Program-made: the position numbers and the translations under genes
The notes under the pieces: model-generated
Told to the model about the DNA's origin: nothing
Database searches by the model: none
Seen by the model: the letters and a program-made list of their open reading frames with translations, nothing else
Shown here: in pieces, positions 45,049 to 58,410 of the stretch
How positions within the stretch are numbered: the stretch's first letter is position 1
Layout of the letters: the number at the start of each line of letters is the position of its first letter
Assembly: GCF_900177805.1 (NCBI RefSeq)
Contig: NZ_FXAX01000001.1
Span: 2,046,001 to 2,110,000 of the forward strand
Length of the DNA stretch: 64,000 nucleotides
Direction: 5' to 3'
Source: Fibrobacter sp. UWB13
GTDB taxonomy: Bacteria > Fibrobacterota > Fibrobacteria > Fibrobacterales > Fibrobacteraceae

Positions 45049-46566
45049 TTAACGGAACTCAAGACTGTCCAAAGGAATTACCGTGAACGGTTTCAGGGAA
45101 TCGAACATGGCAACAGGACCGACAATCGAAATCGTCATCTTGCTCTTATCAAAATACTTAGCAATCATTGCCTGGACCTGTTCAGCAGTCACAGCATTGA
45201 TTTCTGTCACATAATCTAAATAATGATCATCCGATTTGCCAAGTAATTCGCCCTTTGCAAAGATAGAAGCCGTTGAGGAAGGCGAATCAAAGAGGCTCGG
45301 CAAGCTTTCAACCAGGGACTTTTTCGCCTGAGAAAGTTCTTCAGGAGTCGGGCCGTCCTTTGCAAGCTTTTCCACTTCTTCAAAGATGAGCTTCATCGCA
45401 AAGTCCACCGTTTCCACCTTAGTCTGGAGTGCAATCGTCGTCATAGCGGTATCGCGGTAGTCGTTACCCACCGTGCTATAGACACTATAGGCAAGGCCTT
45501 CGTCGCTACGGACGCGGTTCATGAGTCTGGAGCTAAAGCTACCACCGCCAAGGATAAAGCTAGCTACCGCCGTCGGGTAATAATCCGGATGCGGACGCTT
45601 CACGAACGGCTGGTTCATAGTGATATTCGCCTGCGTGATATCCTTGTCGACCACATAGACGCCAGGCTTGCGGGCAAAAGTAAGCGGAACCGGCTTCGGT
45701 TTTTCTGCAGATGCTGCTTCGACCTTCCAATCGGCAAAGAACTTCTTGAGAGTCTTTACCGCAGATTCCTTGTCCACGTCACCGGCAAGAGCAAAGACGA
45801 TACGCTTTGAGGAGAACACGCCCTTAGCAAGACGCTTCACATCGGCAGCGGTCACAGCCTTGTATTCTGCAGAATTGGCATCCCAAAGTCTCGGGTTCGG
45901 AGCGTAGTTCACCTTGGACTTGAGAGCAGAAAGCACCTTGGCAGGCGTTTCAAAACGGCGTTCATAAGCAGTAACATAATTCGCCTTCACGATTTCAAGC
46001 TGATTCTTGTCAAAAGACGGGTCCGTGAGTACTTTCTTTGCCAGTTCAAGCATCGACGGGAAGTCTTTCGAAAGGCAATTGATATCAAAAGCCGAGAGGA
46101 ACGTACCAACGCTCGTGGAAATCGAGGCGCTTACAAATTCCAGAGAGTCTTCGAGCACATGCGGAGAAATTCCGCCACCAGAACCACGACGGATCATGGA
46201 TCCCACCATTTCAAAAGCGGCTTCGTCCTTGAGGACCTGTGGCAAGTTGTTTTCTTCAAAATAGACCGTAAAATCCACCAGCGGGAGCGAACTGTCGCTC
46301 ACAATGTAGCCCGTAATGCCCTCGGCGATTTGCACACTGAAATCTTTGGGATACGGTGCCACGTACTTATATTCCGGGAATTCAATCTTGCTATAATGCT
46401 CAGGCAAATTGCTCGGTTGCACAAAAGAACTGGAACTTTCCACAGCAACGGCATACATATCCGGCACATGTTTAACATGAGATGTCTTTTTAGGCATCAT
46501 GGAACAAGACGTCATCGCCACTAAAGCCGCAATAGCAGCGGCAGGAATCATATAATTCGTTTTCAT
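45049..46566 (-). CDS. M16-family peptidase-like lipoprotein without zinc site
   Basis: 505 residues from the ATG at 46566. Lipoprotein signal ending AMTSC (Cys21). Two M16 halves: the N-terminal one lacks the HxxEH zinc motif; the corresponding region reads AAFEMVGSMIRRGSGG. The C-terminal half keeps SSRLMNRVRSDEGLAYSV, containing the Arg/Tyr pair used for substrate binding by the non-catalytic partner in two-subunit M16B enzymes. The likely role is the beta subunit of a heterodimeric periplasmic protease; the catalytic partner is not in the window. It is the first gene of the long minus-strand run, with a plausible promoter upstream. Confidence 0.88.
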   Translation of the reverse strand: MKTNYMIPAAAIAALVAMTSCSMMPKKTSHVKHVPDMYAVAVESSSSFVQPSNLPEHYSKIEFPEYKYVAPYPKDFSVQIAEGITGYIVSDSSLPLVDFTVYFEENNLPQVLKDEAAFEMVGSMIRRGSGGGISPHVLEDSLEFVSASISTSVGTFLSAFDINCLSKDFPSMLELAKKVLTDPSFDKNQLEIVKANYVTAYERRFETPAKVLSALKSKVNYAPNPRLWDANSAEYKAVTAADVKRLAKGVFSSKRIVFALAGDVDKESAVKTLKKFFADWKVEAASAEKPKPVPLTFARKPGVYVVDKDITQANITMNQPFVKRPHPDYYPTAVASFILGGGSFSSRLMNRVRSDEGLAYSVYSTVGNDYRDTAMTTIALQTKVETVDFAMKLIFEEVEKLAKDGPTPEELSQAKKSLVESLPSLFDSPSSTASIFAKGELLGKSDDHYLDYVTEINAVTAEQVQAMIAKYFDKSKMTISIVGPVAMFDSLKPFTVIPLDSLEFR

Positions 46567-46603: not shown

Positions 46604-46666
46604 AATAGACCAACTATTTTAAGGTTTATCTATCCCCTTTCCGTAAATAGACATATATTAATACTT

Positions 46667-46811
46667 GAGCCTTCCTAGTGGCCACAACAAGCGTAGCAAG
46701 CCCACCTCCGGCTTCCGCACAGTTCTCCAGTCGAGACACAAGCCCCACCAGGAAGGCTTCTTCAATCCCTCCTATGAAAAAGACCCGACGCGAGCGCGCC
46801 GGGCCTTTTTT
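46667..46811 (+). ncRNA. Candidate structured small RNA with CCUCC loops and terminator
   Basis: The stretch is outside any credible gene. An outer helix pairs AGCCTTCCT (46668-46676) with AGGAAGGCT (46750-46758), continued by GTGG/CCAC. Inside, AAGCC (46698-46702) and GGCTT (46710-46714) close a seven-base loop, CACCTCC. A second CCTCC lies single-stranded at 46768-46772, followed by a strong terminator. CCUCC is complementary to the Shine-Dalgarno, a feature of several C-rich regulatory RNAs. It does not show the conserved loop of SRP RNA. The promoter is uncertain; TATATT at 46654-46659 is a possible -10. The opposite strand cannot be excluded because the terminator has T-runs both ways. 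Confidence 0.5.
46782..46811. terminator. Strong, probably bidirectional Rho-independent terminator
   Basis: Stem GACCCGACGCG / CGCGCCGGGCC with an AG loop and two A-C mismatches, followed on the plus strand by six T. On the minus strand it is followed by TTTTT. It can end the small RNA candidate from the left and the BatB-like gene from the right. Confidence 0.8.
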
Positions 46812-46820
46812 GTGAAAAAC

Positions 46821-46848
46821 TAATGACCAACGACCATTGACCAACAAC
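46821..46848. repeat. Degenerate heptameric repeat, site 1
   Basis: Four consecutive seven-base units on the plus strand, taatgac caacgac cattgac caacaac; on the minus strand the consensus is GTCAWTR. It runs straight into the stop codon of the minus-strand BatB-like gene. Same family as at 47954-48039 and 50657-50698. Confidence 0.7.
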
Positions 46849-47876
46849 TAGCTAAATCTTCCATTGAGCTGTTTGCGGCGACGGCCGCGTTCCGAAATAA
46901 CAGCCTCGATCAAGAACAGGAGGGCAGCAAGTCCAAGGAAAATCTGGTAACGGTCCTGGTAATTTTCCATGCGGTCACTGCTTTGGTCTTTCTTTTCGAG
47001 CGAAGCAATTTCAGTCAAGACTTTTTGCAACTGGAACTCGCCCGGGCTTGCGTAGAAGTAGAGCGCACCCGTCACACTAGCAATCTCCTGAAGCGTCCCT
47101 TCTTCGAGGCGGGTGGTCACGATATTGCCTTGCATGTCCTTCTTGTAGACACTACTGCCATTCTTGCTTTTGAGCGGTATAGGAACGCCTTCGCGGGAAC
47201 CAATACCAATCGTATAAATTTTGATGCCGAGTTCTGCAGCTTCTTTTGCTGCATTCACAGCAGCGGCTTCAAGTTCTTCACCATCGCTCATGAGAATCAT
47301 CACGGAATGCTGACTTGCGCCACCGGAGTTTTTGAACAAAGTCATACCCTTGCGGATAGCACTTTCGAGGTTCGTGCCCGGCATGAGCCAACCCGGATTC
47401 AGTTCGCGGAGCACCATCTGCACCGTACCGTAATCAAGCGTCAAAGGCACCATGACCTGAGCTTCACCACTGAACGCCACAAGACCCACGCGGTCTCCCG
47501 TAAGCGATTCCAAGAAAGCCGAAATTTCGTGACGGCTACGCACCAAGCGGTTCGGCTTCACATCTTCGGCAAGCATCGAAAGCGAAATATCCTGCAACAG
47601 CACAAGATCCTGACCACGGCGTTCCACATGTTCCATCTTGCGCCCCCACTGCGGACGGGCAAGAGCGACAAACAAGAAAGCTATGGCAAGGAGCAACAGC
47701 AAAACTTTAGTCAGGCGCCTCCACGGCGAAACGCTCGTCGAGAGCTTCGAAAGCATAGGGAGCGACACAAAGCGTGCCGCCAATTTTTTACGGCGATGGT
47801 AAGCATACACAAACAGAAGCGCAAATAGAGGCAGAGTAAAAAGGCCCCACAAAAAGTTCGGTTCGGCAAATCTCAT
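46848..47876 (-). CDS. batB: BatB-like von Willebrand factor A protein
   Basis: 342 residues. N-terminal hydrophobic segment and a second near 60 (VLLLLLAIAFLFVALARPQWG, the LARPQ phrase being typical of Bat proteins), then a VWA domain about 90-290 with MIDAS motif DISLSM (DxSxS), conserved threonine in GTNLESAI and the Asp in MSDGEE. A final membrane segment near 315 (IFLGLAALLFLIEAVI). Aerotolerance-type Bat proteins act in the periplasm with MoxR ATPases. SD GGAG seven bases upstream. Its relative BatA is at 49446-50549 on the same strand, but a plus-strand GGDEF gene lies between them. No MoxR gene is in the window. Confidence 0.88.
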   Translation of the reverse strand: MRFAEPNFLWGLFTLPLFALLFVYAYHRRKKLAARFVSLPMLSKLSTSVSPWRRLTKVLLLLLAIAFLFVALARPQWGRKMEHVERRGQDLVLLQDISLSMLAEDVKPNRLVRSRHEISAFLESLTGDRVGLVAFSGEAQVMVPLTLDYGTVQMVLRELNPGWLMPGTNLESAIRKGMTLFKNSGGASQHSVMILMSDGEELEAAAVNAAKEAAELGIKIYTIGIGSREGVPIPLKSKNGSSVYKKDMQGNIVTTRLEEGTLQEIASVTGALYFYASPGEFQLQKVLTEIASLEKKDQSSDRMENYQDRYQIFLGLAALLFLIEAVISERGRRRKQLNGRFS

Positions 47877-48122: not shown

Positions 48123-49295
48123 ATGTCTTACATAGGCTTGATAGAAATCAACATCATCTGTATTGCGGTACTCATCATTACACTGCTGCAGTTCAAGGAT
48201 AGTATTCTCAGGCATCTCGAAGAACGCATTCTCGGCTTTACCATCATCGACACCATCATTTACATCGTGTTGAGCACAGTAACCAAAATGCTGTACTCGG
48301 TTCACGCGCAAAGCGACCTATATACAAGCAACCAAAAGATTTGCGTCATTTACGCCGTCATGTACGCATTGAGCTTGAGTTCTTCGTTGTTGCTTGCCCA
48401 GCTGTGGTTCTCCTTCATCTTCCTCCGCATCCGCAAAAGCGTTTACTCTTACAAGCACCTGTTCCCGCTGTTTTCGACTCCGAGTATTATCGGCATATTC
48501 ATCTGCATCGGCATCAGCATTTACGGATTTACCAACGACTGCCATACGACGTCGCTCCAGTTCAGGCGCCTTTTGCCATTCCTCATCGGGCTGAACTTCA
48601 TTTACATCATCGCCACCATGGTTCTCGGCATCCAGCACGCCATCGCCCAAAGAAACTCCACGAACCGGAAAGAAGCCTTTTACCTCTCATTTATCGCTCT
48701 AGTTCCTAGCGGATCCTGCATTATCCAATATTTTGTCCCGAACATCCCGCTAACCGACCCAATTTTCGCACTCACGCTCCTGCACGTTTACGTCACATTG
48801 CTGAAGTACAGAATCACCTCGGACCCGCTCACGGGCGTGAACAACAAGATTCGACTGATCGACTATCTCCAGTACATCACACAGCACCAGGATTCAAGCA
48901 AGCGCCTGTTCATCCTCGTCATGGAAGTAGACTTTTTCAAGGATATCATCCGCAACTTCGGTTACGAAATGTCCGACCGCGTCATCGCAGACTTAGCATC
49001 GTTCTTCAAGCGCCAATGCAGAGGGCAAAACGCCTTTTTGGCAAGGACCGGCGACAACCAGTTCGCAATTGTCATGGAACGCGATGAAGTTTCTGAAATC
49101 GAATCATTCTGCCAAAAGCTCGTGCGCGAATGCGACCGCGACAGCATGCAATCCGACATGATGACCACGTGGAAAATTTCGTTCAGCCTGCATTACGCTG
49201 AAATTTCAAACATTTCCACAAGCAATATTTCTCAGATTTTCGCCGAAGCCAAAAAGAACTGCTACAAGCCAGAAACTCCGGCACCGAAGGATTAA
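48123..49295 (+). CDS. Membrane protein with degenerate GGDEF domain
   Basis: 390 residues. About seven N-terminal membrane segments (residues about 5-230), then a GGDEF-type domain starting DPLTGVNNKIRLIDYL. Metal-site region EVDFFKDIIRNFGYEMSD retains one Asp and the fold. The signature GGDEF loop reads TGDNQF, so the catalytic Glu and a Gly are changed. Diguanylate cyclase activity is therefore unlikely; it may bind nucleotides or act as a sensor without synthesis. It stands alone on the plus strand between two Bat genes. No SD is obvious. Confidence 0.85.
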   Translation: MSYIGLIEINIICIAVLIITLLQFKDSILRHLEERILGFTIIDTIIYIVLSTVTKMLYSVHAQSDLYTSNQKICVIYAVMYALSLSSSLLLAQLWFSFIFLRIRKSVYSYKHLFPLFSTPSIIGIFICIGISIYGFTNDCHTTSLQFRRLLPFLIGLNFIYIIATMVLGIQHAIAQRNSTNRKEAFYLSFIALVPSGSCIIQYFVPNIPLTDPIFALTLLHVYVTLLKYRITSDPLTGVNNKIRLIDYLQYITQHQDSSKRLFILVMEVDFFKDIIRNFGYEMSDRVIADLASFFKRQCRGQNAFLARTGDNQFAIVMERDEVSEIESFCQKLVRECDRDSMQSDMMTTWKISFSLHYAEISNISTSNISQIFAEAKKNCYKPETPAPKD

Positions 49296-56757: not shown

Positions 56758-58410
56758 CTAAACCTTGCGGTAAGACGCAAAACGGCGGCTGTCGTTTGCA
56801 CGTTTCCAGGCTTCGTTGCCTTCGATGTAACCGGATTCTACGCACATCTGCAAAGAATCGTCGAGCGTAATGCCTTGATCTTTCTGGTTGCTAATCGCAG
56901 AGAGGATCTGCGACACATCGCACTTGCGGATCATGCCCGCAATCGTCGACGTGACCTTCATTGCTTCGGTTGCAAGCACAAGTCCCTGATTTTGCACCGC
57001 CGGAATCAAGTGCTGCACGATGACACCCTTGAGCTGTTCAGCAAGCGAGCACGCAAAGGCACTGCGGTTCTCGCTCGGCACAGACATGAGGAGGCGCGAA
57101 AGAAGCGCGTTGATGTTGTTGCCGCTCGCGACTGCAAACACGAGAGCACCCGCGTTCGAAGCCTGCATGAGCAGGGAAAGTTCTTCCATCGTTTCGAGAT
57201 GGTCAAAGAGAATCACGTCGGCGCCGGTGCGGATGGCGAGTTCGATGCCTGCGGCACCGGAGCGCACATGCAAGCCAACTTCGCGCTGGGCGATGGAGCC
57301 GTTCGGATTCTGGAGCAAGCGTTCAATCGGCTTTTCGACCGTCTGGATGAACACCTGACGATTCGCAGCAATGCACTCGGCAAAGGCGGTCATCGTCGTG
57401 GAGCGGCCGCTCGACGACGGGCCCGCAATGAGCACAAGCCCGCTATTGAGCGTCGCAAACTGCATGCTGAATTCGGGCAAGTAAAGATTTTCGAGCGCCA
57501 CCGATTCCATCGGAATGATGCGAATGGAAATGCTCGGCGTGACGTCGTTCCACGTCACGGAAATGCGGGCGCGACCGGCACCGGGGAGGCCCATTGTCTT
57601 ACTGAAATTGCGACCGACCACAATCTTGTAGCCGTCTGCAAAGCCTTCGGCGGCTTCGGTCAGGCGGTCCATCAAGTGCGTTTTTTCGAGCACCTTTTCG
57701 GACGCGATAAAGAGCTTGCCAGATTGGCGCATGGTAATCTGGCGGTCGGCGTAAAGGTAAACGTCCGTGACGTTAAACTTGCGGGCGTAAGCGATGATTT
57801 TTGCAAGCGGTGTAATCGGATGCAAGACATCGGGAGCTTCAACGGCTTCGCCTTCGCCGGTAGCAACGGCGAACTGCGACGGAAGTTCTTCGGTCGCAGT
57901 TTCTTCGGCGGGCGTTTCGCTTTCGACCGGAACTTGCACGCTCGCCATGCTCGTCGTTTCGAGACCTTCGACTTTTTCGATGACGACCGTCGAAGATGAG
58001 GCTTCGCCGTAAAGGCTGCTGTTGCCTTCAATCTTTATAGCAGGTTCTTCCTCCGGCTGCGGAGCAGGCGCAGCAGAAACTGCGGGAGCAGGCTGTGCGG
58101 GAGCGGCAGAATGCGCCGGGGACGAGGGCTGTGCAGGTGTTGATGCGGAATGCGCCGAGGCTGTAGCAGGCGCAGACGGAGACGCCGCGGGCTTTTCAAC
58201 AGGCTTTTCAGCAGGCTTCGCGCTTTTCGCTTCGAGGTTCTTCACAAAGGTAAGAACCTTATCGTACATGGACTGTTTCAAGATTCCCGCACGAACAAGA
58301 ACCTGACCGATATCCATCGAGTCGGAGATTTCGCCCCAGTGAGCCTTGACCTGGTCCTCGGACACAACCTTGTTGTGCACAAGGACTTTTGCCATGTACT
58401 GATTTCTCAT
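56758..58410 (-). CDS. PilT/GspE-like ATPase with degenerate Walker A
   Basis: 550 residues. Residues 1-60 resemble the GspE/PilB N-terminal domain (VLVHNKVVSEDQVKAHW, IGQVLVRAGIL). About 62-135 is a Pro/Ala/Ser-rich linker. PilT-like core from about 200: FNVTDVYLYADRQITMRQSG. Walker A reads GPSSSGRST (330-338), with Arg336 in place of the catalytic lysine. The Walker B region ADVILFDHLET lacks the GE of PilT, and the His box (GTLHT in PilT) is AVASG. Probably incapable of normal ATP hydrolysis, so perhaps a regulatory or structural partner of the shorter paralogue. The start overlaps the ABC permease stop by four bases. Confidence 0.86.
   Translation of the reverse strand: MRNQYMAKVLVHNKVVSEDQVKAHWGEISDSMDIGQVLVRAGILKQSMYDKVLTFVKNLEAKSAKPAEKPVEKPAASPSAPATASAHSASTPAQPSSPAHSAAPAQPAPAVSAAPAPQPEEEPAIKIEGNSSLYGEASSSTVVIEKVEGLETTSMASVQVPVESETPAEETATEELPSQFAVATGEGEAVEAPDVLHPITPLAKIIAYARKFNVTDVYLYADRQITMRQSGKLFIASEKVLEKTHLMDRLTEAAEGFADGYKIVVGRNFSKTMGLPGAGRARISVTWNDVTPSISIRIIPMESVALENLYLPEFSMQFATLNSGLVLIAGPSSSGRSTTMTAFAECIAANRQVFIQTVEKPIERLLQNPNGSIAQREVGLHVRSGAAGIELAIRTGADVILFDHLETMEELSLLMQASNAGALVFAVASGNNINALLSRLLMSVPSENRSAFACSLAEQLKGVIVQHLIPAVQNQGLVLATEAMKVTSTIAGMIRKCDVSQILSAISNQKDQGITLDDSLQMCVESGYIEGNEAWKRANDSRRFASYRKV

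Follow-up and report, generated by a model that had tools for sequence, protein, structure and literature searches.

The whole stretch of DNA analysed here (the window, 64,000 nucleotides from Fibrobacter sp. UWB13) includes, at nucleotides 46667 to 46811 of the plus strand, what is almost certainly a genuine structured RNA gene that had not been described before. The RNA family extends across Fibrobacter, and most genomes of the genus carry a single copy; judging from its sequence features, the RNA is probably a gene regulator. The preliminary description had listed the region as a candidate small RNA, a proposal now strongly supported by the genus-wide family, compensatory changes, a conserved promoter and the lack of an Rfam match. 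Fibrobacter play an important part in cellulose degradation in the herbivore gut, and a search of the open-licence literature on Fibrobacter small RNA, sRNA and 6S RNA found neither a description of such an RNA nor any described regulatory small RNA in the genus. A single-copy, covarying family with a fixed promoter offers a concrete entry point to post-transcriptional control in this phylum; Hfq and ordinary 6S RNA were undetected in the searched genomes of the genus.

The region folds with an energy of −48.4 kcal/mol (z = −4.3), a stability that none of 200 shuffled sequences equalled, and its overall structure is a long closing helix enclosing two hairpins. The closing helix, P1, consists of the 5′ strand GAGCCTTCCTAGTGG (46667-46681) paired with nucleotides 46745-46759, as found by folding and by covariation. 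In the minimum free energy structure it encloses P2 (46691-46718), a hairpin with the structure GCG / AAGCC-CACCTCC-GGCTT / CGC whose anti-Shine-Dalgarno-like loop CACCTCC (46703-46709) has an unpaired probability of 0.98-1.0, and P3 (46724-46736), TCTC-CAGTC-GAGA, which is present in all 48 distinct copies of the family. P1 is followed by a single-stranded tail, CTTCAATCCCTCCTATG (46760-46776), which holds a second CCTCC (46768-46772, within CCCTCC at 46767-46772) with an unpaired probability of about 1, and then by an intrinsic terminator predicted by folding (46773-46814), a GC-rich hairpin and T6, that puts the end of the RNA near 46811-46814. Thus folding and pairing probabilities confirmed the seven-base loop, the unpaired second CCTCC and the terminator of the preliminary description, all at the coordinates given there. 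The terminator is T-rich on the minus strand too and may also serve the gene ending at 46848. The first nucleotide of a −10 promoter box, TATATT (46654-46659), is exactly 13 nt ahead of the core, from which we infer that transcription starts at about nucleotide 46667, the first G of P1; a scanner for consensus promoters and terminators listed neither this promoter nor the plus strand terminator.

The same region had been called an orphan stretch, and we indeed found no convincing gene overlapping 46667-46811. A small ORF within the RNA was considered and rejected, as ORFs are not kept and close copies differ by 1-nt indels. A tRNA/tmRNA scan gave no match. Two CCTCC motifs within 145 nt are reached by 8.7% of dinucleotide shuffles and are unsurprising when taken alone; the features that exceed chance expectation are the covariation, the fixed −10 box and the fact that both motifs are almost completely invariant in 14 distinct copies.

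A DNA search of relatives yielded five close copies, with divergent ones at the same place among the weaker matches. Twelve copies were recognised, and 11 of them were used to build an alignment and a covariance model, R1, that detected, with E values below 1e-11, 64 carriers among the 80 genomes of the genus, each with one real copy; second matches were weak, on the opposite strand at the same site, or were short stems. The window copy has the P1-P2-P3 three-way junction with TATATT 13 nt upstream that defines the family, and scores 74.6 bits with R1 and 55.8 bits with the model R2, its own clade being included in both model alignments. A degenerate pattern searched against the genomes of 84,980 species produced 43 matches, all of them in Fibrobacter (Fibrobacter sp., F. 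succinogenes MAGs and one Fibrobacterales record). Possible carriers outside the genus were rejected: the weak R1 and R2 matches were short hairpins of the terminator kind that lacked the middle part. In the 16 genus members with no detectable copy, R2 and a pattern combining the promoter and P1 gave only coding or unrelated sites; these members may have lost the RNA or carry a diverged copy.

The covariance analysis of homologues that the preliminary description had proposed as a check revealed compensatory changes in all three helices, in agreement with an earlier alignment of 55 sequences. Among 94 matches (48 distinct), standard pairs make up 91% of cells and both sides have changed in 11 of 26 pairs, counts that are biased toward the model because the alignments were fitted to it. 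The covariation score was 0.208 versus 0.089 in shuffled alignments and 0.03-0.09 when the partner was slid, and none of 500 shuffles reached the observed value. Pair 8-134 (U-A in 27 copies, C-G in 21) is visible in the raw alignment, and seven copies folded singly adopt the same three helices with z values from −3.6 to −6.8. Within the clade of the window copy a double compensatory change converts the inner stem of P2 from AAGCC/GGCTT to AAGTC/GACTT in two copies (L204 and L184), while among the 48 distinct copies P3 shows a U-A to A-U change in 6 and a basal G-C to A-U change in 1. The plus strand can be identified as the RNA since its G-U pairs would turn into mismatches if the minus strand were read, and the opposite strand scores much lower (20-35 bits versus 54-87 bits).

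In 45 of 48 distinct copies TATATT begins at precisely this distance of 13 nt from the core, and it is invariant in the window's clade, where the −35 to −15 spacer is variable. At the other end, 20 of the 34 distinct copies that lie outside this clade have five or more consecutive T immediately after the 3′ strand of P1, so the P1 helix itself can act as a terminator. In the window's clade and some others the T-run is interrupted, and a pyrimidine tail is present along with a separate terminator.

The C-rich motifs are conserved at a narrower scale. All 14 distinct copies from the window's clade share the P2 loop ACCTCC, with a variable preceding base, and in them the tail AATCCCTCCTATG, whose CCCTCC is invariant and unpaired, is nearly unchanged while the neighbouring sequence changes; 17 of 18 positions of the tail (46761-46778) are invariant, compared with 3 of 21 in the −35 to −15 spacer and 19 of 37 in the terminator. 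Most other members of the genus lack the loop motif. Outside the clade, 9 of 34 distinct copies have a CCTCC in the inner region (3.8 expected); in six of these, which form one related group, it overlaps the P2 stem, and it lies in an exposed P2 loop in only two. Other tail-bearing clades have related C-rich tails, TATCCTCCT, TATTCTCCT, TATCCTATT or TATCTTCCC, and GTACCC follows the T-run in many T7 clades. The exposed CCTCC is therefore a clade trait and not a common property of the family, and as it is not kept genus-wide it cannot be the function common to all members. A conserved scaffold that gains anti-Shine-Dalgarno loops and a tail could be regarded as a natural experiment.

The reading that we favour, to which we assign a probability of about 0.45, is that of a trans-acting, stand-alone, Hfq-independent C-rich sRNA that would regulate mRNAs through their ribosome-binding regions. 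According to this proposal the RNA would be transcribed from its own TATATT promoter, with a start near 46667, as a conserved core of approximately 85-110 nt that reaches approximately 145 nt in the window's clade; P1 would close a three-way junction joining P2 and P3, and the transcript would be ended by P1 or by the terminator hairpin that follows. In the window's clade the P2 loop ACCUCC and the 3′ tail UCCCUCCU would then most likely pair with G-rich ribosome-binding regions, and this pairing, without Hfq, would lower translation of the mRNAs.

Hfq (PF17209) was not found in 13 genomes of the class, including that of the window, while control genomes were positive. Redox-responsive expression is a trait of RoxS/RsaE-type sRNA. 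RoxS and FsrA are C-rich, Hfq-independent sRNAs that pair with Shine-Dalgarno regions (PMC8216469), and since Hfq was not detected an RNA of this kind fits as a model. As is the case for RoxS/RsaE, FsrA and CsfG of Bacillus and Staphylococcus (PMC8216469), the Fibrobacter RNA would stand alone, would not need Hfq and has unpaired C-rich stretches complementary to the Shine-Dalgarno sequence. It differs from them in the lack of a sequence or Rfam match, in its three-way junction with a 15-position closing helix and in a C-rich loop limited to one clade. As regards the RsaE-type RNAs named as an example in the preliminary description, unpaired C-rich segments are conserved in the window's clade but not across the genus; the best model at present is an RNA that may resemble RoxS and FsrA in manner without being a member of their family.

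The statement that no known family could be recognised also stands, as Rfam produced nothing in the window at the gathering score and, up to E = 10 with the window copy and a divergent copy (L039), only terminator-driven or chance matches. The best sub-threshold score at the 3′ part of the RNA, 19.3 bits against a 50-bit gathering cut-off, was to RF02278, the Betaproteobacteria toxic small RNA. The Burkholderia RNAs of this family are toxic when cloned in E. coli, and their native function is unknown (PMC4603805). They share with the Fibrobacter RNA an exposed CCUCC followed by a strong terminator; unlike it, they are 64 nt long and lack P1-P3, and the alignment depends on the terminator. Bacterial small SRP RNA (RF00169) is likewise conserved, hairpin-rich and about 100 nt long, but the Fibrobacter RNA has no SRP domain motif. 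SRP RNA was rejected as an identification: the genome's own copy scores above the cut-off on another contig (G000:C6:75265-75361), and there is none in the window.

Complementarity to mRNAs was examined in several ways. Shine-Dalgarno sequences are in use in the window's genome: similar 4-mers are most frequent at −14 to −8, and 21 of 315 start regions contain GGAGG versus 2 upstream. Complementarity to 332 start regions did not exceed that of the reversed control, and about 464 kb of start regions showed no excess over control in longest complement or duplex energy. The tail favours start regions over upstream DNA, yet 13 of 60 shuffled tails do equally well (9 of 60 for the loop), so this preference is due to its composition; the positive control, a 16S tail for which we assumed the consensus letters, beat all 60 shuffled versions. 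A 15-mer complementary to the tail had 25 matches in six genomes, self sites excluded, versus 16 for the reversed pattern, and some lie at start codons, e.g. that of a 255-amino acid protein in two genomes (G000 and G014), positions that Shine-Dalgarno content alone favours. The ribosome binding site GGAGGGATT of a T2SSE-domain gene of the window (56758-58410, minus strand) is perfectly complementary, over 9 nt, to the RNA tail AATCCCTCC; as a target this gene was rejected, since the match is not significant and the reversed control reaches 10 nt. The earlier anti-Shine-Dalgarno reading is partly supported, in the window's clade alone, in which loop and tail are invariant and unpaired; in the target search no signal rose above control.

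The absence of the loop motif from much of the genus leaves room for an sRNA that pairs through other segments, such as J1/2 or the GGUGG/CCACC strands of P1, or for a sponge, the CCUCC being incidental. Most clades retain GGTGGAT downstream of P1, which agrees with this alternative; we consider it less likely, as in the window's clade the variable segments are J1/2 and J3/1, whereas ACCTCC and the tail show the same invariance as P1.

Across the family the sequence is most strongly conserved in P1 and P3; this points to protein binding or to a structural role and counts against the sRNA pairing model. The RNA could accordingly be a protein-binding structural RNA, e.g. a compact 6S-like molecule occupying RNA polymerase, with the C-rich segments as a clade-specific addition, although we judge this unlikely. 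6S RNA is a long hairpin with a central bubble and a long apical duplex that binds the RNA polymerase holoenzyme and templates pRNA. Like 6S and 6S-Flavo, the Fibrobacter RNA is a near single-copy, stand-alone RNA in which a long closing helix opens to an unpaired region, and its length is similar to that of 6S-Flavo (108 positions). No 6S RNA is recognisable in the genus, and two genomes from a different family of the same class have full-length candidates that score below the Rfam cut-off (L091, 361-539, 39.8 bits; L220, 1501-1674, 27 bits). On the other hand, neither RF00013 (6S) nor RF01685 (6S-Flavo) matched the window copy, the divergent copy or the genus genomes searched, a failure of the Rfam models that is no proof that Fibrobacter lacks an ordinary 6S RNA. 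Moreover, the core is just 85-109 nt, the short apical stem and the extra hairpin form a three-way junction in place of a long hairpin with a central bubble, and the apical P2 stem of about 8-10 bp is too short for promoter mimicry up to the −35 region. A combination of both ideas is quite improbable: the RNA would have replaced, or shrunk from, 6S RNA, its compact junction would control RNA polymerase, and the anti-Shine-Dalgarno arms of one clade would add control of translation. If it were true, a single RNA would touch transcription and translation.

The genomic surroundings bear on a possible action in cis. In most genomes, but not all, the RNA is divergent from an M16 peptidase gene, which in the window encodes an M16 peptidase-like lipoprotein (45049-46563, minus strand; PF05193), while a BatA/VWA-domain gene (46848-47876, minus strand; PF13519, PF07584) converges on it from the other side. 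At six examined loci it is found after a gene that we take to be bioB from its protein sequence, and the downstream genes varied. The existence of at least two unrelated genomic contexts indicates that the RNA is transcribed from a promoter of its own rather than forming part of a leader. A cis-acting leader or attenuator of the M16 gene, or a minus-strand element of its 5′ UTR, would be in keeping with the frequent adjacency, with the stable fold of the minus strand and with one genome (G114, locus L128) in which the RNA lies just upstream of the M16 gene in the same direction; it is very improbable in view of the divergent orientation in the window, the bioB loci, and the strand scores and G-U pairs described above. 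That the region is a mere terminator or a functionless chance fold is hardly credible, for the strong terminator, T-rich on both strands, would explain neither the covariation and fixed promoter nor the genus-wide conservation and movement as a unit.

Further features were observed around these loci. In the bioB-linked copies (L126, L129, L131, L132, L133 and L143) an inverted repeat, CCACTTT/AAAGTGG, overlaps the promoter region of the RNA and may be a bioB terminator or an operator. In a gene tree whose rooting is weak, the two non-carriers examined, G009 and G011, group with the bioB-locus genomes. The only match of the M16-like lipoprotein of the window (45049-46563) is to the 'inactive' C-terminal domain model PF05193, and the protein may be a non-catalytic member. 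Finally, the region between nucleotides 46848 and 50549 includes two minus-strand BatA/VWA genes split by a plus-strand GGDEF (diguanylate cyclase) gene (48123-49295); in other genus members, e.g. G003, the two VWA genes are adjacent.
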